A stretch of DNA of 64,000 bases from Diacronema lutheri. Its lineage: Eukaryota; Haptophyta; Pavlovophyceae; Pavlovales; Pavlovaceae. The notes below the pieces were generated by a model that saw nothing but the letters and a program-made list of their open reading frames with translations, did not search any database and was not told where the DNA came from. Positions 1,774 to 29,650 of the stretch are shown piece after piece; within the stretch, counting starts at the first letter, position 1; each line of letters opens with the position of its first letter. Location: positions 1-64,000 of the forward strand of contig JAGTXO010000072.1 of assembly GCA_019448385.1 (NCBI GenBank), in the 5' to 3' direction. Made by a program: the position numbers and the translations under genes.

Positions 1774-1949
1774 CTGCTTGGGCGCGAACGGAAAACGCGC
1801 GAAGGGTGGCGACGAAGATCGTTGGGTTGGGTTGGGCCACCGGCTCCCGAGGATTGCTTGTGGCGCTCGACTGACCGTTGGCCCAGCTTTTTTTTTTCTC
1901 GAACCTACTGTGGAGCCGCCTGCAGCGTGATCTCCCGCGCACAACGACC

Positions 1950-7278: not shown

Positions 7279-7327
<49 letters not shown>

Positions 7328-7532
7328 AACTCTCCCTACCTTCTTCCTCCTTTCGCACCTCGCACGCGCACGCCGTCCGCTGTCCGCTGTCCGCGGCCCA
7401 AATTGCCTTGCGGAAGCCGAGCAGGCAGAGCCCTGCTTGGATGGCTCCAGCGCGCATCTTGTGGATGGCGACGCTGTGGGCGAGCACGGACGCTCAAATG
7501 TGACCAGTGGCGCGCACGTGCACGTGCGCTAA
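5855..7532 (+). CDS. ubiquitin-specific-protease-like (C19) cysteine peptidase
   Basis: The product looks like a USP-fold deubiquitinase. The Cys box is KNEGSACYTTVLMQSLFAL (Cys codon 6107-6109; family pattern GN-TCYxNSxLQ). A downstream PQDAAEFFRLLL matches the USP QDAxEF motif. The His box is MSGHLVAIVL...AWFPCDDYN near 6715-6780. An intron 6782-6923 (GTGCGG...GCGCAG, phase 0) joins DDYN to IYNVPESDALAWASGASMLV, restoring the USP C-terminal strand pattern. A second donor (GTGAGT at 7251) opens an intron containing a long C run plus CA repeat; its acceptor is near 7421-7425. The final exon ends at TAA 7532. The start at 5855 is the first ATG in frame, but an upstream exon is possible. The canonical first Asn of the Cys box is degenerate, so activity is uncertain. 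Confidence 0.65.
7281..7330 (+). repeat. poly-C plus (CA)n tract inside a probable intron
   Basis: About 30 consecutive C are followed by (CA)n and then a pyrimidine-rich CTCTCCCTACCTTCTTCCTCC. It sits between a consensus GTGAGT donor (7251) and an acceptor-like GCCGAGCAG (about 7421), so it reads as an exaggerated polypyrimidine tract. Length is likely polymorphic or assembly-uncertain. Confidence 0.6.
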
Positions 7533-9901: not shown

Positions 9902-10239
9902 GCTGCGCGACGAGGCTGCGCAGGCCGGCGCGCGGCCGTGCAGAGCAGCGCAGGCCGGCGCGCGGCCGCGCGCGCGCGCTCACGTTGCGGCCGCGCAGCG
10001 AGCTTTCGCCGCGTCGCAGCCCCTCCGAGCAGCCACGATGCACGCCCCCGGAGGACGTTGGCCGCGCTCGGAGGCCGCGCTCGGGCGCGCAAAGAGAGGC
10101 GGCGCGGGCAAACGAGTAGGCTCGGCGCGCTGGCGGGTCCTGGTTGTGGGAGAGCGGGGCATTCTCCAGGGCATCATGTAAATTCTCCCAAGTATCATCC
10201 GGGCCGCCATCCGGACACTGACGTGCCCACAGTCTGCAG

Positions 10240-10830
10240 ATGGAGGACTCCGTGAAGGACGCTTTGCCCGGCGGGCGGGGCGGCTCGGACAGTTTCTCGC
10301 TGGCCCTCAGCACCATTCTGTCGCCGGGAGATACCCACCCCCACGTGGTCCCATCCACTTGCCTCATCGCCCTGCTGCGTTACGCGGATTTCGGCACGAG
10401 CAGGGTTAGGGTGGGCGACACGGGGTGCTCGCAGCATGCGCTCAAGGTGGCGCTGCGCAACCTGCGCAAAGCATGCGCGGATGCGGACCGGTTTGGGCAG
10501 GTGCTCGTGGTCGTGCTACCGCTCTGCCTCCGCGCGTCCAGCGGCCTCGTGCACTGGACGGCGGCGTACCTGCTCCTCGCGCCGCCCGCGCAGCGCGGCG
10601 CGCCGCCCGGCGCCGCGCTCGCCCTGCTCGCCGATTCGCGCACCTTGGGCAACGGCGAATCGGCGTACGCCACGGCGGCCGGCGTGCTCATCAAGAAGCT
10701 TGCGCAGCGCATCGGCAGAACAGCGCCGCCCATCGATGCCTTCAAGGCGCCCCCGCAGAGTGGGGCCGCGTGTTGCTTCGCCGCGGCAACAGTCGCGGCC
10801 GAGGTCGTGGCGAGCGCATCGACGCTCTAC
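10240..10830 (+). other. Ulp1/SENP (C48)-like protease module 1
   Basis: The N-terminal domain of the giant frame. It shows the Ulp1 order H-D-Q-C: SGLVHWTAAYLLL (His105), ALLADSRTL (Asp132), then APPQSGAACCFAAATV (Gln173, Cys178/179). A LPLCLRASSG strand precedes the His, as in Ulp1 proteins. Known members cleave SUMO or Nedd8-like conjugates; the substrate here is unknown. Among the modules it is one of only two with a complete catalytic set. Confidence 0.6.
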
Positions 10831-13800
10831 GGCCGCCGCGCGAGTGTCCTTGTCGACATCAAGAAGGCTTTGGACGCGCGCCTCGCGCGCCTCACGACGG
10901 CCGCGTACGAGGAGACCCGCGCGCGCACGCTCCGCGCCGCCATCGGCGCTCTGCTCGGCGACCGCGCCAGGCGCTTCGGCCCGTTCACCCGCGAGGCCGC
11001 GCGGCTCGCCGAGGCCGCGCGGCTCGCCGAGGCGTGCGATGCCAGTGTCGGCGGATCCGCGCCCGACGGGCTGCTGCAGGCCGTCGAGGCGGCGCTGCGC
11101 GCGCCCGACGACCGCATCGCACGCACGGCCGCGCTCGACGCGCTCACGGGCGCTGCAGGCCGCGCGCTGTCGACGGCGGCCAGGCCGCGCGGCGCGGCGG
11201 CGCCAAGGCCGCCGTCGCGAGCGCCACCGCCGCGTGCGCCGCAGCGGCGCGCCGCCTCGGCGTGGGGGCCCCGACCATTCAGCAGCCTCGGCGGGGGCGA
11301 GGGCGACGGGGACGATGGCGACGCCACCACCGCTGACGACGGGGAGGGCGCGGAGGACGGGGACGACGACCCCGCGGGCGCGGCGGCTGCGGCGGTGGCG
11401 ACGGGCACGGCGGCGACGAGCGCGGTGGCGGCGGGCGCGGCACCAACCTCGCCGGCGGCGGCGGACGGCGGTGGCTCGGCGCCGCTCGAACGCCGCTGCG
11501 TCTACACTGCGCCTGATGAGGGCGACGCGGACGCGCGCGTGTACGACGCCAAGGACCCCGAGCAGCTAAAAGCGGGCAGGGCGCGGCTACGGGCGAACAG
11601 CGGGCGCGCGCCCGCCGTGGTCGACACGCTTTTCGCGCACGCGACGGGCACGATCGTCACGCGGCAGCGCACGGAGGGCGTGACCGGCGCGGGCATGCAC
11701 CACCTCGCCGCCCCGACGCAGGGCGCGGGGTACGGTACCGTCGTGCGGGCCGAGCTGGGCGAGCCCGGCTTCGCGGGGACGACATGGCACATGACGTCGG
11801 GCGTGGAGAACCAGCCGCGCGCGGTACGAGCGGCCGCGCGCGCGTACGCGCACGACGGCTGGGGCGGCGTGTACAATGCGCACGAGGACTTTGCCGCCTT
11901 CGAGGGCTTGCCGCGGCTCGCCGCGCCCGAATCGCTCGCGGCCATCGCCGGCGGGTCGGCGGACGCGGTGTTCTGCTGGCGGTCCGGCCGGTCCGTCATC
12001 GGCGAGGTGACGACGGTTCACTTCAATGGCGACCGCGCCGCCGCCATCGACCACGCGCGGGCGCTGCGCGTCAGGCCCGATTGGCGCTCGCAGCCCAGGA
12101 TCTACGAGGCGGCGTGCGGCGCGGAGGGCACGGTGCTGCTCGTGTGGGTCGTGCCCGACCGTCACAAGAACCCGCGGCTGGACTGGGCGCCGATTCTCGT
12201 CGTGATCCACCTGCCCGCCGACCCCGACTGGCTCGCGCGCGCCACGCCGGCGATCGCGAAGGCGCGGCGCGAGGTCGAGGACGGACGCGCGCGCGCGGAG
12301 GCGCGCGGCGTGCCGCAGCACCTCGCCTACACGCTGAGCCCACGCTTCCGAGGCACCGCGCCGCGCGGAGCCGCGCGCGTGCCGCCGCGCCTCGGCGCGA
12401 GCGACGCGCGCGAGGCGCGCGCGCTCGCGGCGCTCGAGCCGGCGCTCATGTTCGCGCCGGCCTGGCGGCGCGCGGTGCGCGCGGCGAGCCGCGCCCCCGG
12501 CAGTGGCGCCGCGGCCGTCGAGCGCGCGCTCGCGCGCCTGCACAACGCGCTCGAGCCCGATGACGAGAGCGCGCCCGAGTCGACGCGCGTCGCGCCGCTC
12601 GCCGCCGCGCTCGAGCAGTCGGCGGGCTGGCCGGCGGGCACGGCGCGCATGGCGGCAAGCGTGACCAAGGGCCCCGGCGTCGGAGATGGCGCAGGTGGCG
12701 ACGAAGTGACCAAAGTGGAGGAAACGGCGAAGACGAGCGGCGACGGCTGCACCGGCACGCCTCCTCTGCGCCCGGCCGCGCGCGCGGCCGGCGCGGCGGA
12801 CGACGGAGGGGCGGCGGTCGTGGCGGGCGTCGAGGGCGAGCGCGACGCACTCGCCAAGACGGGTGCCGGCGGCTGCGACGACGACGCTCGCGAGCCGCTG
12901 TCGGCCGGCAAGCCCGGCGCACTCGCCGCCGCGGCGACCGTCGGGGGTCTCGGCGAGCTCGTCGGCAGCCTATGCGCGTGGCTGGCGCGCGGCGCGGCTG
13001 GCGGCGCCATCGCGGCCATCTCCCCCGGGACGGCCGCGCGCGGAGCAAACGGCACGCCGCAGCGCGCCGAGCCGCCGGCCGCCGGCGATCCCGTCGCTCC
13101 GCACGCGCGCGTCGCCGCTGCGGCGCCCTTGGCGGGCAGCGCGGCGGCGCCGTCGTCGGCCGCGCGCGACGCGCAGCGCGGCGTCGCGGGATTCGACGCG
13201 GCCGCGCACGCGCACGCGCGCGACGGCAGGCGGGCGGCACGGCGGATGCGCGAGCAGGAGGGGGCGGTGCACAGGGCCTTCCGCATGTCCCTCTGGCGCG
13301 ACGCGACGTTTGTCGAGTTCGTTGAGAAGCTGCGCCCCGACGGCGGCGCGCAGCTGCTCGCGCGCGAGCCCACGCGGCGCGCGGCGGCGGTGCTGTGCGA
13401 GCTCGCGCGCGGCCGCGACGGCGCGAGCGGCGCGGCCGGGCTGCTGCACGAGATGAGAGCCGCCGATGCGCGCGCGCGCGAGGCCGCCAAAGCGGCGGAG
13501 GCAGCGCAGCTTGCGCACGGGACGCTGCGCATCGTGGCAACCGTGGCGCTGGGCGGTGCGGTCTTCGCCGGCATGTCAGCGCTGGTCGTTGCTTGCGCGG
13601 CGCGCACGGCGACCGGTGCGCTTTTTGGGGCCCGCCGCCCGCGGGCGGCCGCGCGCGGAGCCGACGACGCGCTCGGCACGCTGCAGCGCGCCAAGCCGCC
13701 GCCCGCCGACAAGGGCAAGCGCAGGCGCGCCAGAGCCAACGACGACCCCGTCGACGCGGCGCGCAAGGCCGTGGGCAAGGCGGAGGGCAACTGCCGCAAG

Positions 13801-16800
13801 GCAGCCCGCCGGCTGCACCTCGCTGCACTGGGCGAGGAGGAGGCGCAGCAGCGCGTGCTCGACGCCGAGGCGGCGGAGCAGCTGGCGCGCTCGCGCGAGC
13901 CGGCCGGCGGCTGGGTAGGCAGCGCGCGCGCGCGCGCGCGCGCGCGCCCCGCCGCGCGCGCGCCCGTCGATTGGCGTGCGCGCAGCGCAGAACGGCGCGC
14001 CAGCTCCGTCACCTGCGCGCCGCCGCGCCCGTGCCCCTCGCGCGCAGGGGCGCCCTGCGGACCTGCGGCTGCAACAGGCGCACTTTGGCATGCGCGAAGA
14101 TGCCGACGCGGATGTGCGCCGCGCGCACGAGGCGCTGCGCCGGGCGAGAGAGGGTGTGGCGTGCGCCAAGGCCAGCGTGCGGCAGATGGAGGCGGCGTTG
14201 CTCAACGCGACGCGCTGCGCCACCGCGGTGCTCGCGCCGCGTGGCGTGCCGGAGGGTGACGAGCAGGCCGCGGCGAGAGAGCAGGCGGCGCTGGACCGGG
14301 AGGCGCCGCCGGCCGCGCAACGCGCGGCGCCGACGGCGCGCTCGCCCTCGGAGCCGCCGTCCGAGTGGGGCCCGCCAGCGGTCGGCCGGCGCCCGACGCC
14401 GCGTGCACTGTCGCACGCCGCGGGTCGCGGGGACGACAACCCGTTTGCGCCGCTCGCAACCGTCAGCGGCGATTGGTCGCCCACGCCGAGCTCGCGCTCG
14501 CCGTCCTCGCCGCCGCGGCAGCCGCCGTCCGACCGCCGCAGCGCGCAGCGTCGCAGCGCGCGCGCGCGGCCGCCGAGGCCGACCGTTTCGCCCGAGGACG
14601 CGCTCGCAGCCGAGCGCCAGGCGCGCGCGCTGTCGGAGCAGGCGGAGCAGAGGCGCGCCAAAAAGGCCGCCGCCAAGGCCGCGCGCCGCGCCGCGCGCGC
14701 CGCCGACAAGCGGACGGCGCGCGTCGTCCACGCGTGCGTAAGCGCCGCCTTGCGGCGCGTCTGCACGAGCGTCGCCACGGGCACGCCGCTCGCCGTGCTC
14801 CGCGAGCGCGCCGAGGGGCCGCGCGCGCCGAAGCCCGCGCCCGCGCCGCCACGCCGCGCAGCGGACGGCGGCCGCGCGCTCCGCCACGCGCGCCGTGCGG
14901 CCGCCGCGGCGGCGGAGCGCGAGGCGGCGGTGGCGGCCGACGCCGACGAGCGGTTCGAGCGGCAGCCCTCCACCGCCCGGTTCGACGGCGGCGATGGCGG
15001 CGGAGGCGGCCACGTCGAGGCGAGCGCGCGACCGCGCGCCGGCGAGGCCGGCGAGGCTGGCGCGCACGGCGCGCCTGGCGCAGCGGGGACCCCGGCGGCG
15101 TCGCTCGCGTCGCGCAGCCCGTGTGATGCGCGCCGCACGGCACGCCTCCCGCACGCACGCGCCGCAGCCACCTGCGCACGCAACGGCGGCTGGGGTGGCA
15201 ACGTCGGCGGCGACGTGTGCGGCGGTTGTTTCGGCGGCGGCGGCGTCCGTCGCGACGCCTGCGGCGGCGGCGACGCCACCTGCGGCTGCGGCGATGGCGG
15301 CGTCGGTGCTGGCGCTGGCGAGGCCCCTGCACACGGTGCGCCGGCGCGCGCGACGGCGTCGCGCTTGCTGCGCTTGCTCGGCGCGCCACGCGCCGTGCTC
15401 GGTGCGATGGCGCACGCCGCGGCCGTGTTGGCGCGCGGCGTGGCCGCAGCCGTCGCTGGCGTGCGCGCCGCCGCGCGCGCCGTGCGGCGCGCGCGCCGCC
15501 GAGCGCCTCGCGCGCGCCGCACGGCTGCGCGGCGGGCTCGCGGCCCGCCGATGCGCGACGTCGACGGCGCCCTGCGGCCCTCGCCGTCCTGGTTGCGCAC
15601 ACGCCTCGTCTGCGGCCGGCGCCTCGCGCCTCTGCGCCGCGCGGGCGCGCGCCCGCCGCCCGCACACGCCGCGCCGAGTTCCCGCGCGCGCGCTGCGCAA
15701 CCCGACAGCGACGCGCCGGCGTGCGCGCCGCGGCGCTCGGCGCCTGTCGGTGCGCCGCCGCGCGCGCGTGGCCTGCGCGCGGCGCGCGCACGGCGCTTCC
15801 TCGACGTCGCCGGCCGCGCGGCGCGGAGCGCGCGCCTCGGCGCGCGCATCACGCGCCAGCGCACGCCGGGTTCGCCATCGGAGCCCTGCACGGCCGAGAG
15901 CGGCGACGGCGCGGGCGCCGGCGGCGTCGGCGCGGCGGCGCCTGGCGCGGCGACGATGCGCGCCACCGGCGCGCGCGCAGCGCGCGCTGCGGCGGCGGCG
16001 GTCGGTGGCGCCTCGCGTCTCGCGCGCCGCGCGATGGCAAGCGCCGCCGCCGCTGCCACCTCCATCGCCGGCGCTGCCGCCTCCACCGTCGCCGCCGCCG
16101 CCGTTGCCATCGGCGCGGCCGTCACGTCACCGGCGTTCGCCGCGGCGCGCGGCATGGCGGCCGCATGCGTCGCTGCCTGCGCCCGCCCCACCGCCGCGCA
16201 GGCGGCCGCGTCGCGCGCGCTCGGCGCGCTCTTCGTGCTCGTCGACGCGGCCGACGCGGCGGGCGACAGCGACGCCGCGCTCGGCGCGCTCGCGGCCGCG
16301 GTCGACGCGACGGAGCTGCGCCCGCCGCCGGCCTTTTGGCGCGCGGGCCGCGCCGCGGCGTACGCACCGCGTCCGCCGCCCCTCGACTCGGCGCGGCCGC
16401 GCTACAACCGGCGCGCGCGCGCACCTAGCCCTCCCGTCGCGGCCGCGCGGCGCAATCTCGCGCGCGCGGTGCGCGAGCTCACGCGCGCCGCGCGCGCTGA
16501 GCGCGAGCGCGCGCCGGCGCCGCGCGGCGCGCGCGGCGGCGTGCTCCACGCGCTGCGCGCGTCGCTCCCCGTGCACGCGCGTGCCGCGCTCGGCACGGAC
16601 GCGGAGCTGCGCGCGGACATCGCCGCGTTCGCGCGCGCGCGCCGCGAGCTGCACAGCCTCACCGACGCCGAGGTGGCGGCGCTCGCGCGCCCGGACGGGC
16701 CGCCGCTGCCCGTGCGGCTCGCGTGCACGGCGGTCGCGCGCGCGCGCGGCGTGACCGTGCTGCTCGACATCGTGCCGCGCGGCGGCGGCGCGCCCGAGCG

Positions 16801-18495
16801 GCTCGTGTGCCGCGCCCGTCGCCGCGGCGCCGCCACGCGCACGCCACGGCCGACAGCCGCCGTTATCGCGCGCGCGCCTTGCATAGCGGCGCGCGTTGGC
16901 CACACTGAGCCGGCGCGCGCGTGCGCGGGCGGATCGATCGGGGTCGCGCGCCTCCGTTCAGCGCGCCGCCGCTCTTGGCGTGGGGCGCGGCTCGACGTGC
17001 ACACCCGCGAGCGGCTGGCCACACCGGTGCCAGGCCACGTCGTGGCCTGCGCCGCCGCCTCGGCCATCGGCGCGTGCGTCGCTCGCGCGCGGCTTGGGCT
17101 TGCACGGCTGGCGCGCGCGTGGCCCTGCGCCTCCGCTCCACTGGCCGCTGCTGCTGTCGCCTTCGCGCCTGCCGCCGACGGTGTTTTCTGCGCCCCGCTG
17201 GGCGCTCCTGCATCCGCCTTCGCGCCTGCCGCCGACGGTGTTTTCCCCGCCGCACTAGCCGCTGCTGCATCCGCCTTCGCGCCTGCCGCCGATTTTCCCG
17301 CCCCACTAGTTGCTCCTGCATTCGCCTCCGCGCCTGCCACCGACGGCGTTTTCCCCGCCCCACTAGCCGCTGCCGCTGCCGCGTCCGCGCCCGCCGCCGC
17401 GGGCGCGTCTTCCGCCCCACCAGCCATCGCCGCCGCGCCCGCCGCCAACGCGCGCACCGCCAACGTGCCCGTTGCCAACGAGGCTACCGCCACCGAACCA
17501 GCCGCCCTTGAGCTTCCCCTCCAACCCGCCAACTCGGCGCTGCTTGCGTGGGCGGGCGACGCGGCTGCGCGCCGGCTGGCCGCCGCCGCCGCGAGCGCCG
17601 GCCTCCCGCAGGCAGAGGTGGAGCGCATCGCCAGCGGCGACATGCTCGCCTCAACCGTCGACGCGTGCTGCGAGGTCGTGCTGCGCGTGCACGGGCAGGC
17701 CGGCGGCGGGCATGTCTGCCACGTGCCGCTCGCCGCGCAACCCGCGGTGTTTCAGGACGACGCCGAGCGCGCCGCGCTGCTGCACCGCCTGCGCAGCGAG
17801 GCGACAACGCAGGCTGTCATCGGCGTGTGGAGCCCGTCGGACGAGCGCGGCGGCGCGGGCGGTGACGACGGCGCGCAGCTCGCCTCCGGCCATTTCACCG
17901 CGTTGCGCCTTGTGCGCGTCGCGCGCGCGGGCGAGCATCGCTACGACGCGGTGCTCGTCGACACGCTCGCGTCGCCCTGCAGGCAGGCGCTCATGCTCGC
18001 CAAGGCGATAACTGCCACGCTGCACGCGGCGGGTCTCGACATTTCGCGCGTGCGCCGCGCGCTGCTGCTCAACGAGGCGGCGCAGCGTGGCGCGACGTGC
18101 GGCCTCGCGATAGTGGGCGCGCTCAACGACGCGCTCGCCGCGGCGGGCTGCTCGTCCGCGCCGCGCACGTTCAGCGTGGCGGACATGTACGCTGTCGGCG
18201 AGCGCCTCCGCGTCGCGCTGACCGGCGCGGCCAGCGATCGTGCGCCGGGCGGCGTCTGCGCGGTCACGAGCGCGGTGCGTGGCGGGGGCAGCCCCGATCG
18301 CGCCGAAACGCCGCCGCAGACGCGCGGCGCCAAGGCCGCCGCTGGCGTCACCGCCGCCGCCACCGCCGCCGCCACGCCGCCGCCGCCCGCGCTGGGCGCC
18401 GCCGCCGCCGCCACCGCCGCCGCCGCCGCTGCTGCCGCCGCCGTGGCCGCGCCGCCACCGCCGCCACCGCCGCCGCCGGCCGGCGACGCGGGCGA

Positions 18496-18574
<79 letters not shown>

Positions 18575-21500
18575 GCCGCGCGCACGTTCTTGAAGCTCGC
18601 GCCCAGGGCGCGCGCGGCCGCCTCGGCGCGTGAGGCGTTGCGCGCCGCGTGTGCGCGCGCGGACGCGGCGGCGTCGTCACACGCGTCGGCGCCGCACGCG
18701 CCCGCCGGTGCGCGCCGCCGGCGGCGCGCGGGCGCAGGCGAGCTGGCGCTCGCGGCTGCGCGCGCGCTCGCCTCGACGGAGCACGGCGATTTGACGGACG
18801 ACGCGCTCGAGGCCGCCGTCGAGCAGGAGCTGGGCGACGAGCGCGGCCAACTGCTGCTGTGCACGCGGGGCGCAGCGGCGCAAAGGCCCGCGCTTTGCCG
18901 GCTCCTGAAGCACGCGTGCGCGTCGGCGCGCGCGGCGAAGCGCGCGCAATTCACGGTGTTCGTCGTGCGCGCGGCCACGCGCGGCGAGCGGGGGGGCGCC
19001 GCCGCGAGGCGCGTGGACTCGGTGGTCGAGCTGTCGTGCGCGCTGCACGAGAAGGCGGGCGCGCTCGGCGGCCTCCAGCGCGTCTGTGTGCGTGGCTTCG
19101 CCCTCGAGCGCCGCCGGACACTCGACGCTGGCGCCGAGGCCGGCGCGTCCGCCATCGGCCAGGACGAGCAGGTCGAGGCAGAGGCGGGCGAGGCGTGCGT
19201 CGCCGGCGTGACGATGGCCAAGCAGCTGCGTCAGTTTGCCGAGCAAGCTGCCCGCGACGACGTGCTCTTCCACGTCGCCGTGTCCGAGGCCGACGCCCAC
19301 GCCCGGCTGGCGCGCGTTGCGGGTGACGATGTCGGCGCGTACAGCGTCGTGCTCGCAGTCGCCGGGCTCGTCTGGCTGGCCAAGGCCGACGAGGTTGCGC
19401 CGGCGGCCGCCCAGCCCGCCGCCGTGCCGCCCGCCGCCCCGCCTGCTGCCGCCACGTCCGCCGACGCCGAGCGCGACGCCTCGCCTTCCGACCGCCTGCG
19501 CGCGCTGACGCTCGCCGTGCGAGTCGCGCTCGCGCGCGGCGTGCTGCGCCACCTCCTCGCCGACGCGTCGCCGGGCGCGTCCGCGACCGCTGGCGGTAGT
19601 TGCGCGACGCCCGTCGAGGCGGCCACGTCCGCCGCCGCGCCGCCCGCCACGGGCGTCGTGACGAGTGGCGTTGCGGCGGGCGCTGTGGCGGCCGCACCGG
19701 CTGCTGCGGGCGGTGCGATGGCGGGTGCATCGCCCATCACGCGGCCGGCGAAGCGCGCGCGGCGCACGCTCACCGCCGCTCCAGCCGCCTCGGCCGTTGC
19801 GGCCGCTGGAGGCGCACGCGCGGGCGCACGCGGCGCGGCCGGCGCGCCTCGCGCGCGCGCCGCGCGCGCGCCGGCCGAGTACGTCTGGCTTGCCATCGCG
19901 CGCCGGATGCTGGCGGCGCGACACGCGGCGGCCGCGGGCGGCGACTTTGTCGCGTCGTGCGTCGCCGCGATGCAGGCCGAGTACGGCGACGGCTGTGCCG
20001 TCGTCGTCGGCGACGCGCCTGATGACGCCTTGGTCGAGGCTGCGGCGGCGGCGCTGCTCGAGGGCAAGCACGCGGCGGTGAGCCTCGGCTGCGTCGACCG
20101 GCCGGCGGTGCTCGTCGTGCAGCGCGCCGTGGACGCGCCCACGTCGCGCGTGCACGGGTGGTGCGCGCACGCGGCGGGCGCCGCCGAGTTTGACGAGGGC
20201 GCCGCGCACGGCGTGTTCAACGCGATCGTCGAGCGCGCGTGGGCGCTGCGTCCGGACCCGGCCGACGGCAGCCCGCCGCCCACGCGCACGTGGGAGGTCG
20301 AGCAAATCGCTGGCGACGCGCCCGACCAGGCGGGCGTGGCCGCGCTGCGCGTGCTCTACGCGCTCGTCGCGGCGCACGGCCGCTACCGCTCGGCCGCCGC
20401 GCTCTTTGGCGCGCTCGCGCAGCTGCACGCGCCCGACGCCGCCGGCGCGCGCGCGGAGGTCGTCGCGGCGGCGTGCGCGGTGCCGCCCGGCGCGCGGCCG
20501 GGCGCCGCGCCGGCGGCCGCGCGGGACGACGCGAGGGAGCGCGCATGGGACGGCGCTCAGATCGCCGCGCTCGCCGTCGGCGCGGACGCTGCGCGCAGGC
20601 GTGTCGCGCCCGTGCGCGCGCTCGTCGACGCGCTCGGCACGCCACCGACCTCGGCGATCACGGGCGGGCCGGCGGTCCGGCTCGCGGGCGCGGGCGACGG
20701 CGGCCACGGTGCACGGTGGGTGGGCGGGCAGGCGGCGACGCCCGCCGAGCAGCTGCCGAGGGAGCTGCTGCGCGCCTACCACGAGGCGGTGCTGTGCGTC
20801 ACGCCCGGCAGCCTCCAGCTCGGCCCGGCGGCGCTCGACGCGGTCACGCGGCCGCGCGAAAACGACACGCTGGAAGGCCTCCTCGCGCGCGTCAGCTGGC
20901 AGTGCGGCGCGAGGGCGAGCACGTGCGCCATGCTCGCCACGTTTTCCGAGCAGGCGGGCACCGGCTCGCGCGTCGCGCTCAAGGCCCTCCGCACGAGCTC
21001 CGACCTGGCCGGGCTGACGGCGGCTGCGGTCGGGCAGCAGGCGCCGCAGACGCCGCCGCCGCCGCTTCTCGTGATGCTCGGCCGCTGCCCCAGCCCGCTC
21101 GTCGGCGGCGGCCTCTTCCCGCCCGACCGCGCGACGGGCGAGCCGGCGGTGCACGCGGCGACGTCCGAGCTCGCCGTCGAGCTGCTGCGCGACGCGCGCG
21201 CGCTGGCCGGCACGGACGGGCGGCTCGTCGTGCTGTGCCTCGAGGCGTCCAACCCGCTCTGGTTCTGCCCCAAGGTGCGCGAGCTCGAGCTGCCGCGGAC
21301 GCGGTCGGACGGCGTGCGCGCGTCCGGCTGCACCTGCCCTGCGACGTGCAGCGATGCGCGCGGCGCGGCGGGTGGCGCTGCCCGCGGCGCATCGACGCGG
21401 CCGGCGGCGCGCGCGATCAACAAGGCGGTGCTCGACCACTTCGTCGCGCTTTTCGGCCGCGAGGGCTTCGCGACCTTTGAGTTTGCGGGCGGCGGCGAGG

Positions 21501-24500
21501 CGAGCTGGCTGTGCGACAGCGCGGCCGGCACGACGACCGTCGCGGCGTGCGCGTCGCTGCCGCCGCGCATGGGCGATGGGCAGCTGGCCATCCGGCGGCA
21601 CACGCTCGGCACGGGCGCCGACGCGCCGGCGCACGCCGTCGTCTCGCTCCGCGTCGCGCACGTGAGCCACGCCATCCGCCGCGCGGCGGACGACGGCGGC
21701 GCGCGCGCCGAGCGGATGGCGCGCGCCGCGCGCGCGTTCTGCGATGTGGCGGCCGCGCTGCGCGTCGACGCGATCCTGGCGGAGGTGCCCGAGGACCGCC
21801 CGACGGGCACGCCCTTCCTTGGCGGGCTGCTCAAATGTTGGGACAAACGCAACGGGAGCTGGACGGCGCCAGCCACGCTCGCGCTCGGAGACGTGCGCGA
21901 GGTGGCCAAGCGGACGGCCGACGCAGCGGCCGGCCGAGCGGACGAGGTCCCTGCGGCTGGCCGTCCGCAGGTCGCGGCGCGCGCGTGCGCTGGCGCGATT
22001 GGCGGCGGCGCGGGCGCGGCGGGCGCCTCGGACGCTGCGCCGCGTGCACTGGCGGGCGCGTCGGGTGCGCGCACGGACGGCGGCCCTGCCGACGCACCGC
22101 GCCAGCTGGAGAGCCGCTACGGCGAGGCGAGCAAGCTCGACCTACCCCAAGATTCCACTACGGGCCGCGTCCTCGACGCTCGCGAGGCCCAGGACCGCGC
22201 GCGCGTGCCTGCTGCGCCCGACGGCACAGCGCTGCGCCGCGTGCTCGACGCCGTCGGCGCGGGCGCGCCCGCGCAGCGCAGCCCGCGCTGGCACGACGAG
22301 CGATGGGAGGAGGTCACGGGCAGCAAGGTTGGCGACGTCGTGAACGACAACGCCGGCGTCGCGCACGAGACGCTCACCGACGAGTACGTGCACCGGCGGC
22401 GGCGCGAGGTGCGGACCAAGGCGACGACCGCGGGCATCCTCGGCGAGGCCGTCGCGCTGCGCAAGCTGGCGGCCGCGTACGGCATCACCGTCGTGTGCAA
22501 CCTGCCGATGGTGCGTGCGGACCCGCACGACAAGAGCGCGCCGTTCGCCTTCTCGCCGGACGGGCTCGCCATCCTCCCCGAAAACAACGAGCAGGTCCTC
22601 GTCGAGGTGAAGACGCTCACCAAGGCGGGCGCCACGGCGCACGAGGACGGGCCGCCGCAGCCGCACCGCGATCAGCTGCAGCTCGGCATGCACGTCCTCG
22701 GCGTGAGCAAAGCGCTCTACGTGCAGTACCTCAGGCACGAGGACCGGATCGTCGTGCACGTCGTGACGCGCGGCGCCGGCTGGCTTGCATTCGCGCAGCC
22801 GAGGGTGCAGGCCTTCTGGGCGCGCGTCGTCGAGCGGCGCGCGCGGCTCGAGCGCGCGCGCGCCGACCACCCGGCTGCGAGCCGGCGGCACCGGCGGCAG
22901 CAGACGCCGGCCGGGCCGCCGCTCGTGCTCGCGCTGGACGGGCGCATCCCCGCCGCGCGCGCCGCCGCGCTGCACGCCGTCGCGCACGGCACCGCGAGCG
23001 CGGCGGCGGTGACGGCGGCGGCGGCGACGGGCGACGCGACGGCGTTGCAAGACGCGATCGCGGCGCTGCGCGCGCCCGTCGGCAATGCGGCGATCGACAG
23101 CGCAGCGCGTGCGGAGCGCGCGGCCGTCGAGCGGGCGATCGCGTACCTCGGGCAGCCGGCAGGCGACGCCGCCGCCCGCGGCACGGCCGAGGCGGCCGAG
23201 GAGGAGAGGACGGTCGACGCCGACATCTGCGCGTTGCTGCACCAGCTCGGCGCGAGCGTGGCGCACGTGCACGTCGAGGACGCGGATTGCGTCACGCGTG
23301 AGCACTGGGGCGGGGCGGTGCTCGCTGCAGCGGGCGACCCGTCGAGCGCCCCCGCCATTTCGAGCGTCATCGTCGCGCACATCGTGCGCCTCGCCGGCTT
23401 TGGCGTCGAGCTCCCGCAGTCGATTCGCGTCGCCCCCAGCACGGCCGACTGGCACGAGGGCTGGCTCGACGTGCAGTGCGTGCTGCTGCGCACGCGCCGG
23501 CGCGGGCGGCGCGACGACGACTTTGTGGCCGTCGTCAGGCGCGGTGGGCGCTGGTTTGCGTGCGAGCCCGGCCGCGCGCGGCGGCTGCAGTGGCGGTCGG
23601 TCCTGCGCCGCGCGCGCGGCGGCGTCGACGGGACCGGCGAGGAGGCGTTCGCGGTCGTCTACGTGCGGCGCGGCGACGCGGCCGGCGACGCGGCTGGCGA
23701 CGCGCAGGCCGAACGGGCGCGCGGCGGGCGCGCGCGCAGGCGCACGCGCGGCGGCACGCGCAAGCGCAAGCGCGGCGCCTCCGCCGGGCTCGAGGCGGCC
23801 GCGCCCGCCGGCGCGCCGGCGGGCGCTGCTCACCGCCCGCCCGCCAGGCGTGCCACGGTCGCCGCGCGCACCACGCGCTCTGTGACCGACGCGCGGCACT
23901 CGGCGCCTGCCGCCACGGTTGCACCTGTCTTCGACTGGCGCGCCGGCCGCCCGCCCCCTGCCGCCGCCGCCGCCGCCAAGCGCGGCCAGGCGCTCGAGCC
24001 GGGGCAGTTCGCGCGGCCGCGTGGGCGCGCGCCATGGGGCAAGGTCTGGGACAGAGTCTCGGGTGCGTGGGCGGACAAGCCGACTGGTGCTGCCGTCGCC
24101 GCCGCGCCGCCGCCGCTGCCGCCCGCCGCCGCGCCGCCGCCCGCCGCCGCGCCGCCGCCCACCGCCGCGCCGCCGCCCGCCGCCGCGCCGCCGCCCGCCG
24201 TCGCGCCGCCGCCCGCCGCCGCGCCGCCGCCGCCGCCGCCACCGGCGGCGCTCGGCCGCCGGCAGCACGTCGGCGCGGGCGGCAGCGCGGCGGGCCGGCG
24301 GCTCGCGGCCATCGCACGGCGGCAGCGCGGCGTGCGCGCGCCGCCGCCCGCCGCGCGCTTCCTCGCCACGCTGCCGCCACCGCCACGCGACGGCCTCGCG
24401 CGCACGAGCAAGCAGGCGCGCGCGAGGCGCAACGCGGACGGACGGCCGGCGCACGCGCGCGCGGCCAACGCGCGCGCCTTCTACCGCGGCGTGGAGCTCG

Positions 24501-27500
24501 GCGTGCACGCGACGCGCGCCATCGTCGACGCGCGCCACGCCGACCTGCCGCAGGCCGTCTTCGTGGCGGAGGCGCGGGCGATCGTCGCGCGCTCCGCCGG
24601 CGGCGGCGCGCTGCTCGCGCCGGACGACGTGCGCGACCTGTGCGACGCGCAGACGGACGCCGATCGCGCTGCGATCTGGGCGTCGGTGGGCGCGCACGAG
24701 GCGACGCGCATCTTCGCGCTCGTCACGCGCAACGCGAGCTTGGCGGGCGCGGCGCTGCTCGTGCTGCACACGCCGGCGGGCGCGCCGGCGCGCGCGCTCG
24801 GGCTCGTGGCGACGCGCTCGCGCGCGCCGTCGACGGGCGCGCCGCGCGACGCGCACAGGGCGCTGGTGCAGCGGTTGGACGTGCTGATGGACGCGATCGC
24901 CGCGGCGCGAGGCGCGTCGCCGCTCGAGCTCGAGCTCGCGCTCGCGCCCGAGCCGCAGAGCGCGTGCAACGCGCGTGCGGCCGCGCTGCTCTGCCTGCAG
25001 GCCGTCGCGGACGCGAGCGGCCGTCCCGCCGCTGAGGACGCGCTGGCCGCGCTCGACGACGCGCGCGGCATCGACCGGCACTGCCACGCCGTCCGGCAGC
25101 AGATCGAGGCGAAGCTCGCGTGGCGGCGCGCCGACGGCGCCGTCGGCGTTGACGGCGCCGACGGCGCGCCCGCGCTCGCGCCTGCCGCCGCACCGCCGGC
25201 GTGCGCGCCGGCGCACGCTGCCGGCGAGGCGGCGGTCGACCAGGCGATCGTCACGCGGGTGCGCGACGCGCTGCGCGCGTGGGCGACGACTGGCACCGCG
25301 CCCAGCGCGGCGGTGCTCGACGACGCCTGCGCCGCGTACACGGCCCGCGCACGCGCGCGCAAGGACGCGCGCACGGCGCTGGGCCCGACGCGCGCGGCCG
25401 AGCTGCTCGCCGCGGCCGCGCGCGGCGGAGCCGACGGGGCGGATGCCGCGCGCGCGCTGCTCGGCGGCACGCCGCGCCTGCTCGTCGTGCTCCTCTGCGT
25501 GCCCGTCGCCGCGCCGTCCGGCGAGCCGCCGCGCCCGGTCGGGCTGCTCGTCGCCGACCGGCCGACGGACGACTCGCGCCCGGCCGCGCTCGTGCGCTAC
25601 GACTTTGCGCCGCTCGACGCGGACGTGGCCGTCGCGGTCGGCGCGCATGCCGTCGCGCTGGCCAGTGCGATCTGGCCGCTGCTCGCGGCCGAGGGGGAGC
25701 CGCGGCCATCGCCCGTCGTGCGCTCGCAGCCGCGCGGCGGCGACGATGGCGCGCGTGCGCTCGCAACGTTCGCGTGCCTCGACGCGCTGATGACCGCCAG
25801 CGTCGGCGCGCACGGCCTCGCGGGCGGCGCGGGCATGCTGCCCGCGCTGGTCGCGCGAGGCGCCGCGGCCGCCCAGCGCGAGCGGCAGCTGCGCGCGGCC
25901 GCCGAGAGGCTGGGCGGCACGGTCGCTGGGTGGCCGGACACGGGCGCGAGCGCGGCGGGCGCGAGCGTCGACGAGGAGGCGCGCACGTACGAGGTCGAGG
26001 CGGTCGTCGACGAGCGCCGCAAGGCGGGCAAGAAGGTGACGTTCCAGTTCCGGATCAGGTGGCGGGGCTACGACGAGAGCGCCGACACGTGGGAGCCTGA
26101 GGCCAACGTGAGCAGCGACCTCGTCGCCCAGTTCCGCAAGACGCGCGACGAGCAGAAGCGGCGCGCGGGCGTATCGGGCAGCGGCAGCGGCGGCGCGGGC
26201 GCGGCGTCGGCATTGGCGTCGGCGCCGCTTCGCGCGCACGGCGAGTCGGGCGCCGCGGGCAAGCGCGCCGCGGCGGGTGCCGCCGCGAGCGCGCGCGACG
26301 CCGCGGGCGCGCGCGCGCCGAGCGTTCCCCGCGCGCGCGGCGTCGAGCGCGCGCGCGTGGACGAGCCCGCTGCGCCGAGCGCGCGCGCCGCCGGCGGCGC
26401 GACGGCGCGCACGCGCGTCAGCGTGCTCCCGGGCTTCGTGGTCAAGCGCTCGACGCTCAACGCGGGGCCGCAGGCGGTGACGGCGCAGCCCGGTGCGCGG
26501 AAGGAGCTGCGGCGCATCGCGGCGGCCGTGCACAGGCTCACGACACAGGCGTACCGCGTCATCAACAAGGTGGTGCGCGACGAGGCTGCGGTGGCGAGCG
26601 CGCAGGCCGTCGGCGCGGCGTCGGGCGGCCCGTCGACCAGCGTGCACACGTCGACCACGATGGACAAGGGAACCGTCCGTGCGATCTTCTCGGCCATCAG
26701 CTGGCACAAGGACGAGAGCACGTACGGTGCAGCGCCCCGAGGCAAGCCCGCCGAGCAAGCCGCCGCGCAGACCAAGGCGGCGACGGCGCGCGCCGTCGGC
26801 GAGATGGCCGAGGGCGTCCAGCCCGTCTGCGCGGTGGGCCTCACGGAGATCCTCGAGGCGGAGGCGACGCAGGTGTCCACCGCGTGCCTGATGCATCCAT
26901 CGCGCGTCGTGAACGGGCTGCTCCGCGACGTCGTCCGCGCGGCAGTCGAGCGCGACGAGGCGCTCGTCGCGCTGCCCGAGATGCAGCGAAACGCGCGCGT
27001 GCGCGAGCTGTGCGAGCGGCTGCTGCGCGGCGACGTGGAGGGCGCGCGCGTCGGCTGCCCCGCCGCGCTCGACCGCCACCTGCCCGACATGGTCCTCCAC
27101 AAGATCGACTACAAGTGCACGCCCACGAAAAGGTGGAACTACGACCGGCACACGACGCGCTACTTCCTCGTGCAGATCCGCACCCTGCAGCACGTGGCCG
27201 AGGGGCAGGCGCTGCTCTGCCGGCTCGCGCACATCCACACGCAGCTGACCGGACGGCCGCCGCGGTACAATGTGGCGCCGCTGCGCACGCACAATGTGCG
27301 CGCGAGGCGTGGCTGCCGCTGCCGCCGCCGAGCGCCCAAGCGCGCGCGCCGCCGCCGTGCGCGCCGCCCCGCGGCCAGGTTGGTCACGCGCCCGCGCGCT
27401 CGCGCGCCGCGCGCTGCGCGCAGGTGCCGCGCAACGTGCGCCTCGCCGCGAGCGCCATCTGGGTGACGCTTTCGGATGACGAGCGCAAGGAGCTGCGCGC

Positions 27501-29148
27501 GCGGCTCAAGGCGCTGGACCTGCGCGACCACGATGGCGAGCCGATCAAGTGGACAGGCACAAACGGCAACACCCCGCCGATGTCGGACGTGCGCGTCAGG
27601 TACGCGGTCTTTGCGACGCGCTTCGACATCTCCAACCGCGTCTTCGACTACGCCGGGCGCGAGCGGCCGCCGGCCGATCTGCCGTGGCACGCGCGGCGCT
27701 CGTGGGTTGGCCTCGCGCCGCTGCCGCGCGTGCCGCTCCCGGGCCGGCAGCCCGTCAAGTCGGTGGTGACAGATGGCGTCGCCGTGCACGCCGTCGGGAC
27801 CGTCCTCGTGCCGAAGGCGCAGGCGCCGGCCGGCGGCTCGGGCGTCCTGCACCGCTGGCGCCGGCCGGACGGGCGCATCGCCGTCGCGCTCGGCTCCGAG
27901 CTGCGGCGGGCGATCGACGTCGAGGCGGCGGTCGTCGTCGCGGCCGACCCGAACATGGGCAACATCACCACCTACTCTGCGCACGTCGGGCGGGCGGCCG
28001 TCTGGCGGCAGTTCACGCAGCGCGCGCGCGCGCGCGCCGCGGGCTTTGCGCGCGAGACGGCCAAGACCAACGCGGCGCGGCGGCGCGTGCGCAAGGACGG
28101 GCGCGGCGAGGAGTTCAGCGTGGAGGCGGACGAGGCGCGGCTTGGCGAGGCGCACAGCGCCAAGGTGCTCGGCGAGGGCGAGTTCCACGCCTTCCACCGC
28201 GAGAGCGCGCGGGTGCGCGAGCGCGCCGCCGAGCACGTGTACGACGCGCCGGCGCGCCGGAAGGAGCGCTGGCGGCGCGACAGCGGCGGGCGGTCCAACG
28301 CGGCGCGCGTCGCCGAGGCGCTCATCGCGGCGCACTGTGTCGACGGCGTGACGCGCGACCGGCTGCTCGTGTGCGTGGGCAAGTGGCTGCGCGACCACAA
28401 GGGCGCGCAGCCCAAGGGCGCGCCGCCCGCCTTCCAAGTGGGGCTGCTGCGCGAGCTGCGGCGGCGCGGCGTCGCGGCCGTCTTCGTGCCCGAGCCGTAC
28501 ACGTCGATGCACTGCTCGATGCCGCGGCTCGCCAAGGGCGGCAGGCTGCAGCGCTGCGGCGCGGAGCTCGCGCAGAACCCGCGCCTGCCCGTGGCAAAGG
28601 GCGGCACGCGCACGGTGCACGCGCTCGTCATCTGCCCGGCGTGCAACGGCGGCAAGAAGCCCGTGCACCGCGACTACAACGCCGCGCGCAACATCTTCTA
28701 CGACGTGCACGACATGGCGGCGCACGCGGCCGGGCGCGACACCACGTCGACGCCTGAGCGCTTTGCCCTCGTGCTCGCCTGGTGGGCGCGCGGCGAGGTG
28801 TGGGAGCGTGAGGAGCGCATGGTGCACGGCGAGGGCGACGACTGCGACGACGAGTGCGACGGCGACGACGAGGGCGACGACGAGGGCGACGACGACGACG
28901 ACGACGATGGCAGCGGCGACGGCGGCGGCGGCGAGGGCGACGGCGACGGCGACGGCGACGGAGGCGGCGGCGGCGACGACGACGATGACGGCGGGGGAGG
29001 CGGCGGCGGCGACGGCGGTGGCGACGACGGCGGCGGGCGCGGCGGCGGTGGCGGCGGCGGCTCTCGCGCCCGCACCCCCGCCCGCGGAGCTGCCAGCGCC
29101 AGTGCCGGCGGCGGCAGCGCGCGCGGGCCGAAGCGCGGCCGGCGTTGA
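10240..29148 (+). CDS. giant multidomain gene: Ulp1-like array, YqaJ nuclease, chromodomain, Fanzor
   Basis: Three open frames join by phase-0 GT/AG introns: 10240-13914, 14078-27295 and 27424-29148 (introns 13915-14077 GTAGGC...CAACAG and 27296-27423 GTGCGC...GCGCAG). This gives about 6,200 codons. The first join continues one Ala/Arg-rich coiled coil and the second lies inside the Fanzor core, so both are well motivated. Order: C48-like module (10.24-10.83 kb), nuclease-like patch (11.95-12.02), membrane-like helix (about 13.52-13.60), coiled coil, low-complexity region (14.3-17.5), C48-like modules (17.5-20.4), YqaJ (22.27-22.83), Pro/Ala linker, two degenerate C48-like modules (24.5-25.8), chromodomain (25.98-26.14), Fanzor (26.4-28.75), acidic/Gly tail. 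GC-rich DNA rarely contains stops, so two or more genes or further in-frame introns are possible; 15.1-15.3 kb looks like another frame or intron. The ATG at 10240 follows CAGTCTGCAG and may instead be exonic. Confidence 0.55.
11630..12330 (+). other. possible PD-(D/E)XK-type nuclease patch
   Basis: In the giant frame, GSADAVFCWRSGRSVIGEVT (11955-12014) has the GxxDxxF-x(~10)-ExT spacing of PD-(D/E)XK nuclease cores. It is followed by SQPRIYEAACGAEGTVLLVW, which could be the Gln-containing helix and next strand. This is a motif-level inference only. The flanking segment is the least low-complexity part of the first exon. Confidence 0.3.
13915..14077 (+). other. predicted 163-nt phase-0 intron with (CG)n tract
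   Basis: GTAGGC donor after a Trp codon and GCTGCAACAG acceptor. It contains a pure GC/CG alternating run (about 13922-13948). Removing it fuses two halves of one coiled coil: ...LARSREPAGGW, then AHFGMREDADADVRRAHEAL. Confidence 0.6.
17150..17385 (+). repeat. ~60-bp coding tandem repeat (about 4 copies)
   Basis: Repeats of about 60 bp encode variants of PLAAAASAFAPAADGVF. Copies differ by substitutions and one shortened unit, so the array is diverged. It lies just upstream of C48-like module 2 and acts as a linker. Confidence 0.7.
17520..18170 (+). other. Ulp1/SENP (C48)-like protease module 2
   Basis: The second module with a complete set: ASGHFTALRLVRV (His codon 17891-17893), DAVLVDTLASP (Asp about 17959), then NEAAQRGATCGLAIV (Gln 18083-18085, Cys 18098-18100). 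The segment between Asp and Gln (ALMLAKAITATLHAAGLD) aligns with the equivalent part of the other modules. It is followed by a Pro/Ala linker that ends in an uninterrupted poly-Ala run. Confidence 0.65.
18497..18573 (+). repeat. (GCC)n trinucleotide repeat coding poly-Ala
   Basis: About 25 consecutive GCC codons encode an Ala homopolymer between C48-like modules 2 and 3. Such runs expand easily; length may vary between cells or assemblies. Confidence 0.85.
18780..20430 (+). other. degenerate C48-like modules 3 and 4
   Basis: Two further segments follow the module pattern but lack a full catalytic set. Module 3 (18.78-19.26 kb) has FTVFVVRAATR at the His-strand position, RVDSVVEL at the Asp position and QVEAEAGEACVAGVTMAKQL at the Gln/Cys position. 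Module 4 (19.87-20.42 kb) has HGVFNAIVERAWAL, then VEQIAGDAPDQAGVAALRVL, where the Cys is replaced. They look like pseudoenzyme copies, perhaps binding modules. The homology is judged by eye. Confidence 0.4.
22270..22830 (+). other. YqaJ-like (lambda-exonuclease fold) recombinase nuclease domain
   Basis: The domain opens with QRSPRWHDERWEEVTGSKVG, matching the YqaJ start (Q-x-S-x-x-W-x-x-x-R-x-x-x-x-T-x-S). Then come ILGEAVALRKLA (the conserved GxE helix), FAFSPDGLAIL (catalytic Asp, about 22557) and VLVEVKTLTK (catalytic E-x-K, about 22604-22612). Next is HRDQLQLGMHVLGV (the Gln helix) and ALYVQYLRHED. All the PD-(D/E)XK landmarks are present, so the nuclease is probably active. Known relatives are viral and phage 5'-3' exonucleases that work in single-strand annealing recombination. 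Confidence 0.8.
23190..23700 (+). other. USP/Josephin-like half domain without catalytic His
   Basis: DDDFVAVVRRGGRWFACE near 23515-23570, then a strand ending EEAFAVVYVRR, resembles the C-terminal half of a USP or similar papain-fold peptidase (HYVAxVRxxxxWYxxDD...AYxLFYxR), with Asp in place of His. No clear Cys box precedes it. Possibly a pseudo-peptidase related to the separate USP-like gene at 5.9-7.5 kb. Confidence 0.25.
24105..24245 (+). repeat. Ala/Pro-coding tandem repeat linker
   Basis: Tandem GCCGCGCCGCCGCCC-type units encode APPPAAAPPPTAAPPP-like sequence. It is a flexible linker between the nuclease half and the C-terminal modules of the giant protein. Confidence 0.8.
24470..25830 (+). 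other. degenerate C48-like modules 5 and 6
   Basis: Module 5 (24.47-25.05 kb) includes ALVQRLDVLMDAIAAARG, then APEPQSACNARAAALLCLQA; it keeps Gln and Cys but the His strand reads ALLVLHTPAG. Module 6 (25.24-25.83 kb) includes HAVALASAIWPLLAAEGE, then SQPRGGDDGARALATFACLD, with the Cys position altered. Both align with module 2 around the Asp-to-Cys segment. They sit directly upstream of the chromodomain. Confidence 0.4.
25834..29148 (+). CDS. chromodomain-Fanzor RNA-guided-nuclease homologue (C-terminal part, possible separate gene)
   Basis: The chromodomain (25985-26140) has YEVEAVVDERR, then FQFRIRWRGYDESADTWEPE, with aromatic-cage Tyr/Trp residues. The Fanzor/TnpB part begins near 26410 (helical N-terminus, beta strand YFLVQIRTL) and crosses an intron at 27296-27423. 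RuvC-I Asp is in VVVAADPNMGNITTY (27946-27948), RuvC-II Glu in VFVPEPYTSMHCS (28492-28494), RuvC-III Asp in HRDYNAARNIFY (28672-28674). The zinc ribbon cysteines are HCS (28513), RCG (28555) and CPAC (28633, 28642). Every landmark of TnpB and Fanzor nucleases is intact. An acidic/Gly tail ends with PKRGRR, a likely nuclear signal. The ATG at 25834 would give a stand-alone protein of about 1,060 aa; otherwise it is the C-terminus of the giant gene. Fanzors normally use a guide RNA from the element's own 3' region. Confidence 0.8.
28830..29060 (+). repeat. GAC/GGC trinucleotide repeat coding Asp/Gly tail
   Basis: Runs of GAC, GAT and GGC codons give poly-Asp, poly-Gly and mixed DG stretches in the C-terminal tail after the Fanzor RuvC domain. 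Probably disordered and length-variable. Confidence 0.85.
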
Positions 29149-29650
29149 CGCACGGCCGAGCCGCGCAGCGGTCGACGCTTTGCGGGCTCTGCCCAGGTCG
29201 CGCGCGGCTGGCGACGCGTGCCGCGCGCGGCACGACCGTGCACGCCGCCACCCGTGGCCGAGCGCGCCGCACCAGCCGGCCCGCTCCAACCGCCGTGCGG
29301 ATCACGGACGCTCGCTACGGCTCGTCGGCGCGCGTCACCTGCGCCGGCGGCCACGGCGCCGTCTGCTCCGGCCTCGTCGCGAGCAGCCCGACCGCTGCTC
29401 GCCGCCCGCACGCCGCCGCAGCAACGCTGCGCGTCGTGCTCCCCCGCTCGCCAAACGCGAAGAGCTCCCTCACAAGGACGTCCTTCCGAACGGCCCGCGC
29501 TGCACTCGGGGCGCGATCGTGCCCCTGATCGGATTTGGCTTGACCATCTATACATGTGAGCACGAGTGTGTTTGGTGGGGATCAGTGATACGCTGCATGC
29601 CGGCGCGAGTGTCGGCCTCAGCATCGAGGCGGGCTATGGCGCTGCGCGGC
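29149..29650 (+). other. non-coding 3' flank of the Fanzor gene, candidate guide-RNA and element-end region
   Basis: About 500 bp between the Fanzor stop and the stop of the convergent siderophore synthetase. No protein motif is visible. The distal part (about 29530-29600) is less GC-rich (GACCATCTATACATGTGAGC). In TnpB/Fanzor elements the guide RNA is encoded at or just past the 3' end of the gene, and the element's right end lies there too. I see no convincing hairpin or terminal repeat by eye. Confidence 0.3.

Follow-up and report, generated by a model that had tools for sequence, protein, structure and literature searches.

Does the haptophyte alga Diacronema lutheri encode a Fanzor nuclease joined to a chromodomain, and what might such a protein do for the mobile element that carries it? 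The question arises at a locus in the first 64 kb of contig C22 (JAGTXO010000072.1) of the D. lutheri assembly (43,492,796 bases in 103 contigs); this 64-kb stretch is called the window below. An initial annotation of the locus proposed a well-formed chromodomain directly upstream, in the same exon, of an apparently intact Fanzor nuclease. The biological role of Fanzors is unknown and one like that of TnpB has been proposed; TnpB seems to aid its own element, in that it cuts the sister site and recombination copies the element back (PMC10432273). Here we describe a predicted Fanzor1 with a new domain partner, carried by a giant element, an arrangement of which we found no description in the literature searched.

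A chromodomain and a Fanzor nuclease in one predicted protein

The chromodomain (25988..26140, + strand) is borne out as well formed by a Pfam hidden Markov model (HMM) scan, in which it matches PF00385 with an E value of 5.7e-12 and 45.8 bits against a cut-off of 25.1. Its best matches in the PDB are chains of CDY/CDYL, HP1 and MPP8 (E down to 5e-10). The three positions that we take to form the aromatic cage, Y52, W76 and Y79 of the 1,061-aa unit described below, are all aromatic in the alignment, which makes a role in reading histone marks plausible. A separate gene outside the element (L003/L004, C69:981566-982417) has two chromodomains in one 1,421-aa open frame.

The nuclease part matches PF07282, the TnpB/Fanzor-type zinc ribbon, with an E value of 4.1e-6 and a score of 27.3 bits, the cut-off being 26.3. 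In the spliced 1,061-aa reading the residues that had been named are present: the RuvC-I aspartate is D662, within a DPN motif (27946..27948, +), the four cysteines are C851, C865, C891 and C894, and the RuvC-III aspartate D904 (28672-28674) lies within the zinc-ribbon (TNB) domain (28456..28695, +). The glutamate E844 (28492..28494, +) is likewise there, though the label RuvC-II Glu needs amending, as it is the alternative glutamate typical of Fanzors, set in E-x-x-T-S. The published Fanzor/TnpB signature, D-X(125-275)-[TS][TS]-XX-C4-X(5-50)-RD (PMC3627910), is found as D662, 184 residues, T847-S848, C851/C865/C891/C894 and R903-D904. Of the metal ligands of SpuFz1, D383, N385, E541 and D606 (PMC10432273), the first three correspond to D662, N664 and E844 by profile alignment to 8gkh and the last to D904 by motif and PF07282. 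A TDG motif, named as characteristic of Fanzor1 and placed in its WED domain (PMC10711439), occurs as VVTDG here and as IQTDG in the genomic relative L092, a likeness of sequence motif that does not imply a WED fold. A PDB search with a profile built from the exon and four genomic relatives returned Cas12f1 (E 0.0004) and SpuFz1 (8gkh, E 0.0038), followed by other TnpB/Cas12 chains (E 0.04-0.05) and, weakly, GtFz1 (9cer, E 0.18). By its alternative glutamate, TDG, metal ligands and signature motif, the nuclease is filed as a divergent Fanzor1 with apparently intact catalytic residues.

The genome holds other Fanzor-like genes. A PF07282 scan, in which 150 of 306 candidates were scored, gave 148 matches; 13 places share a better score of 43.9 bits (e.g. 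C1:154701) and form a second Fanzor family. One member, L092 (C1:153200-155000), has a clear DPGK, GDW, DESYTS, RDFNAARN series, and no chromodomain match was found in the 543 aa scanned. In the alignment, L092, L093 and L096 are 28-30% identical to the exon and L095 is 89% identical; N664 is replaced by G in L092 and L093. Invariant in the five aligned rows are E844, T847, S848, all of the four cysteines but the second, and R903-D904; the RuvC-I aspartate is common to all four rows that reach it. L095 (C49:214300-216000) is a diverged, deleted copy of the giant element; it lacks the chromodomain and the N-terminal part of the Fanzor, and its upstream polyprotein runs in frame straight into the RuvC part.

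The two domains do not share an exon as had been thought. The chromodomain lies in a frame-2 open reading frame (ORF) at 13919..27466 and the RuvC and zinc-ribbon parts in a frame-1 ORF at 26101..29148, and a single-exon model was rejected on this difference of frame. Nor are the domains adjacent: the chromodomain ends near residue 102 and is followed by a low-complexity linker of ~90 residues (26141-26410), whereas the RuvC-I aspartate is residue 662. What would join them is a predicted 128-bp GT-AG intron inside the Fanzor (27296..27423, +). Because its removal restores the frame, the chromodomain and RuvC parts fall in one predicted protein, open for 1,061 aa from the ATG at 25835 to the stop at 29146. 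With each stretch read in its own frame, GC contents at the three codon positions are 0.71/0.51/0.94 for 26411-27295 and 0.75/0.55/0.96 for 27424-28800; within 27296-27423 they are 0.81/0.91/0.88, and the three-base periodicity is gone. Further, in a comparison of 19 genomic copies over ~4 kb, with stretches starting ~0.5 kb 5' of the chromodomain, four copies carry a 2-bp length difference inside 27296-27423. We infer that this segment is spliced out as an intron. The exon stretch before it (25835..27295, +, counted from the ATG, with the exon itself beginning upstream) holds the chromodomain, the linker and the N-terminal Fanzor part; the exon after it (27424..29148, +) holds the TDG-containing part, RuvC, the zinc ribbon and an acidic G/D-rich tail that ends in a basic stretch.

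The fusion of a chromodomain to an apparently intact Fanzor is thus supported as a prediction by the presence of both domains, the catalytic residues and the frame restored by the 27296-27423 intron. Of the proposed unit 25834..29148, the joining of both domains in one predicted protein stands; its beginning does not, as the ATG at 25835 is not established as a start and frame 2 stays open for ~12 kb upstream, mostly coding-like with some weak stretches. From open frames, GC periodicity and two GT-AG introns we predict a polyprotein gene at 10240..29148 (+), with exons 10240-13914, 13991-27295 and 27424-29148 and a product of 6,234 aa, a length summed by hand from the predicted exon coordinates. 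Its first intron (76 bp, 13915..13990, +) would join frame 1 to frame 2; it is one of three frame-keeping GT-AG pairs and was chosen because periodicity persists to ~13914. No convincing internal protein repeats were found. The chromodomain-Fanzor is predicted to form the C-terminus of this polyprotein of ~6,230 aa, and the sequence is compatible with two forms: it may be a part of the polyprotein or the product of a start of its own.

A giant mobile element in about two hundred copies

The protein belongs to a mobile element whose interior and 3' end occupy 1..29553 of the window (+), while the first ~1.5 kb at its 5' end precede the start of the contig and are seen in three other copies. Window 3-7993 matches these copies at 99.5-99.65% and 7986-15985 at 99.6-99.85%; they begin ~1.5 kb beyond the window start and span ~31.0 kb, measured by hand. 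At the other side, the match to the window ends at 29550-29559 in the 19 copies. Pattern counts over the genome gave 205 5' ends (up to 3 mismatches), 234 chromodomains (36 bases, up to 3 mismatches) and 223 3' ends (up to 2 mismatches), and the reversed-pattern control of each gave 0 matches. On contigs C1-C14, where exact matches only were paired and some copies are cut by contig ends, 34 of 44 chromodomains are followed by a 3' end 3.3-3.8 kb away, and a chromodomain so placed goes with 34 of 41 3' ends. The distance from 5' end to chromodomain is ~27.4 kb in many copies (by hand). A protein scan of the genome, in which 150 of 260 candidates were scored and four rows proved to be other genes, found that 102 of 146 element rows have an open frame of 4,000 aa or more. 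The family would make up ~15% of the assembly if all 205 copies were full length, and its true share is lower.

Identity to the window over the ~4 kb compared is 99.46-99.95% in 18 of 19 copies and 97.5% in the last, L022. Neither of the two exons has a frame-changing indel in 16 of the 19, a count of indels only in which substitutions were not screened for stops; the other three are L017 and L028, both cut off by a contig end, and the diverged L022. Because of this near identity and the scarcity of frame-changing indels, the expansion of the element is recent, to judge from the copies compared. The D. lutheri genome paper gives 22.9% repeats, among which long terminal repeat elements make up the largest annotated class; no word beginning 'transpos' occurs in its main text (PMC8379373). 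Internally shortened copies occur on C19, C17, C27, C47, C5, C3, C34 and C28. Measured by hand from 5' end to chromodomain, their lengths recur at 18.0 or 22.9 kb, with 22.4 and 9.1 kb also seen; they are possibly non-autonomous subfamilies. Inverted and direct repeats of ~90-100 bp lie in the 5' part of the element (window 510-1393).

Junctions were compared in 23 copies, of which 20 came from at least 40 listed 5' matches and three had been found earlier. The ends are constant and the sites unrelated: the element runs from C-TATATACGG at the 5' end to GACCATC-TATAC at the 3' end. The 5' junction C-TATATACGGCGCGG is seen in the 23 copies, with the C in 21 and one copy reading TATATAGGG; three further 5' junctions have C, C and G. 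The 3' junction, visible in 18 of the 23, reads GACCATC-TATAC in 16; one copy, which lies at a contig end, has TATAA and another has TAAC. Short direct repeats thus stand at the ends, CTATATAC at the 5' end and CTATAC at the 3' end. The junction comparison revealed no terminal inverted repeats (TIRs) and, by eye, no common target-site duplication (TSD); a direct repeat of 13 bp is present at a single copy, C9:2907802. Two readings remain, in that TATA may be duplicated in a CTATAC-type target or the element itself may begin and end with CTATA..C. Hairpins are predicted near the element ends.

The flanks are unrelated except in two copies (C4-40 and C85), which are both inserted in one kind of short repeat, at points that differ by one base. 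This short repeat, ending at about GCCGTTAGTAT, has 235 matches genome-wide (e.g. C4:40374). Among 20 of its copies (L072-L091), L073, L075 and L078 abut the 5' end of the giant element and L082 reads as a palindromic pair. As the 20 copies continue differently on the right, no empty, pre-insertion site was recovered among them. Several contigs end (C71, C13, C32, C33) or start (C1, C5, C6, C12) exactly at the element's 3' end, which is explained by the assembly breaking in a repeat. A telomeric element was considered and rejected, as contigs also begin at the 5' end (C32 at position 9, C49 at position 1) and the window's own contig starts inside the element.

Beyond the stop codon the element closes with 405 bp of non-coding sequence (29149..29553, +), kept in the 19 copies compared. 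A guide RNA scaffold would be expected here, and the guide itself past the element's end. Adjoining the 3' end, a siderophore-synthetase-like ORF lies at window 29651-31981 (-), with matches to IucA/IucC (E 3e-21) and FhuF (E 5e-16).

Other genes of the element

The HMM scans covered 14 forward and four reverse ORFs of the element plus sub-pieces; outside them lie the window's initial ~1.9 kb, the ~1.5 kb of the element that precede it and most reverse frames. A PIF1-type helicase gene (1950..4282, +) extends over two frames (ORFs 1875-3263 and 2222-4282), with matches to PF05970 (E 3.7e-14 and 1.8e-24) and Pif1_2B (PF21530, E 6.2e-13), all above cut-offs; it has at least one frame change, presumably an intron. 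An ORF at 5381..6877 (+) contains a ubiquitin carboxyl-terminal hydrolase (UCH) domain of the USP type (PF00443, E 4.3e-8, 33.5 bits against 23.9). Within the polyprotein lies an exonuclease domain of the RecE/lambda-exonuclease/YqaJ type (22265..22840, +; phrog_434, E 6e-15), which other libraries match below their curated cut-offs (TIGR03033, E 3e-5, 24.2 against 68.05 bits; PF09588, E 7e-4, 20.3 against 22 bits). Two resemblances to Ulp1/C48-like cysteine proteases were noted by eye, at ~10486..10830 (+; H...D...Q-x4-C) and ~17813..18160 (+; H...D...Q-x4-C-G), each one of four loose-pattern matches and with no Pfam match.

In the frames scanned, with Pfam, PHROGs and NCBIfam, there was no match to Rep, tyrosine-recombinase or DDE families, though HMM scans can miss diverged enzymes, nor to a reverse transcriptase family. 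A weak PHROG transposase match (E 0.24) sits on the Fanzor zinc ribbon itself. Loose scans, run without a shuffle control, gave nine HUH matches, two of them in polyprotein frames (13201 and 23258), and 13 H-xx-R...Y matches; some of the HUH-like and H-xx-R...Y matches fall within polyprotein frames. The Fanzor, PIF1 and exonuclease pieces have no relatives in the viral contigs scanned. Elsewhere in the window, a tandem array of ~34 copies of a 36-bp unit lies at 53401-54603.

Relation to known systems

The nuclease shares with the Fanzor1 proteins SpuFz1 and GtFz1 (PMC10432273, PMC10711439) the D/N/alternative Glu/D ligands, E-x-x-T-S, the four cysteines, RD, TDG and carriage by a mobile element; it differs in its N-terminal chromodomain, the giant predicted polyprotein, the acidic repeat tail and its strong divergence, and its guide RNA is putative. 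The CTATA at the element junctions is akin to the CATA target-adjacent motif (TAM) of SpuFz1 (PMC10432273). Similarly, the Helitron2 elements of Chlamydomonas that carry Fanzor1 (CRe-1,2,3; PMC3627910) are found in an alga, contain an intron-bearing Fanzor and, like the present element, mostly lack a TSD; TSDs of 7-19 bp are seen in them, and the 13-bp direct repeat of one copy here is comparable. In contrast to these, the D. lutheri element is ~31 kb long, has no Rep domain that we could find, ends in CTATAC and has other gene content.

Chromodomain-bearing Gypsy elements (chromoviruses, including lineages in Ectocarpus; PMC12477816) likewise combine a mobile-element enzyme with a chromodomain, which is thought to steer it to chromatin. 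Here the partner is a Fanzor-type nuclease rather than an integrase, the chromodomain is N-terminal, and no reverse transcriptase family was matched in the scanned frames. The giant algal DNA transposons KDZ and EnSpm (PMC12477816) resemble the element in their ~30-kb size, high copy number and accessory genes, whereas no such transposase was matched in the scanned frames. Crypton ends have short terminal direct repeats and neither TIR nor TSD (PMC3627910). The ends described above are of this type, except for the 13-bp direct repeat of one copy and with the direct repeats being either element or target bases, yet the tyrosine recombinase of Cryptons has no family match in the frames scanned.

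The comparison with Helitrons is similarly divided. The element has a PIF1 helicase, lacks TIRs and mostly a TSD and has predicted hairpins near its ends, yet no HUH Rep family was matched in the frames scanned, and the end reads CTATAC, while Helitrons follow a 3' CTRR rule. No fusion of a chromodomain to Fanzor or TnpB was found in the literature searched, outside which falls one 2023 Fanzor survey; passages of PMC6338049 mention chromodomain and Fanzor/TnpB separately.

Possible function and competing explanations

We favour, with a probability of about 0.6, an element-borne Fanzor1 whose RNA-guided cut would aid the retention or copying of the element, with the chromodomain as a tether to methylated chromatin. 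The guide would be read from the sequence just past the 3' end of the element, in the right flank. By analogy with SpuFz1 and Fanzor1, the scaffold would be 29149-29553 plus TATA and the TAM would be (C)TATA; Fanzor1 guide RNAs extend ~15 nt past the TSD, which lies within the scaffold (PMC10711439). The nuclease would cut an unoccupied copy of the site beside a short (C)TATA-type motif, and repair would then copy the element back, the 'cut and copy' proposed for TnpB. From knowledge of their families, the exonuclease and the PIF1 helicase would aid a long recombination tract and the chromodomain would bind H3K9/K27-type methylated nucleosomes, so holding the nuclease or the polyprotein near silenced copies of the element. 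The architecture itself is read in the sequence, and we infer a guide RNA, cleavage and histone binding. A bolder version, which we regard as very unlikely, is a giant element that moves without a conventional transposase: Fanzor would make the breaks, the RecE-type exonuclease would resect them, PIF1 would drive the copying of ~31 kb, and the chromodomain would add histone-mark targeting to the guide RNA.

Several results weigh against the favoured reading. Exon 27424-29148 alone matches no Fanzor in the PDB, and the NCBIfam TnpB model reaches only E 0.085 (12.1 against 100 bits). A 296-aa piece spanning the intron matches nothing in the PDB, so that the exon-1 part is called Fanzor only from its position. 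Searches of 5.8 billion proteins, of which two scored the 8,000 candidates with most shared words and a third all 1,765, returned only P0001, a 99% identical piece. The 3' region folds no better than shuffles (z 0.08 and -0.77) and matches no Rfam family. Differences between copies are mostly nonsynonymous (in L022, 28 nonsynonymous to 8 synonymous and 35 to 16, without a neutral expectation), which gives no hint of purifying selection between copies. Finally, no transposase or recombinase was recognised in the scanned frames, so the mode of movement is not accounted for.

This last point bears on the most serious rival, which we hold to be possible though doubtful: the Fanzor would be passive cargo, an accessory gene picked up by a giant transposon that belongs to a known class (Helitron-like, Crypton-like, KDZ or other) and is moved by its own transposase, and the chromodomain would serve the whole polyprotein, for example in the choice of integration site. 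The absence of TIRs, the short direct repeats at the ends and the mostly absent TSD resemble Cryptons or Helitrons, and a PIF1 helicase is present, as it is in Helitrons. In Ectocarpus there are giant DNA transposons with accessory genes that can be longer than 30 kb, and Chlamydomonas has a mobile KDZ element of 31.7 kb (PMC12477816). What counts against passive cargo is the null result for Rep, tyrosine-recombinase and DDE families, tempered by partial frame coverage and by the ease with which diverged enzymes escape HMMs. The fusion itself could also be undone after translation or never be made, if the polyprotein is cut by proteases of its own or of the host, or if the chromodomain and the Fanzor come from different messages; we consider separate products unlikely. 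The protease-like motifs seen by eye in the polyprotein and the UCH domain in the element would suit them, as would the low-complexity linker 26141-26410 with its weaker codon-position contrast than neighbouring stretches. However, the chromodomain and the exon-1 Fanzor part share one open frame with no stop between them, third-position GC is 0.98 in the chromodomain, 0.93 in the linker and 0.94 in the rest of the exon stretch (to 27295), and no evidence of a cleavage site was found.

That the Fanzor is a relic, with decaying copies and a fusion that is a functionless accident, seems to us more improbable still. It would explain the lack of a sign of purifying selection and the existence of diverged and deleted copies (L022, L095), but it sits poorly with ~200 copies by pattern counts, with the recent expansion to which the near-identical copies and the 16 of 19 exon pairs free of frame-changing indels point, and with the intact catalytic residues of the window copy.

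Significance

What Fanzors do for the elements that carry them is an open question (PMC10432273). In D. lutheri a predicted Fanzor with a chromatin reader stands beside a recombination-type exonuclease and a PIF1 helicase in one element with ~200 copies, so that both the cut-and-copy idea and a connection to silenced chromatin can be tested directly in an alga that grows in culture. If the favoured reading is true, the element would supply a naturally occurring fusion of a histone reader with an RNA-guided nuclease.

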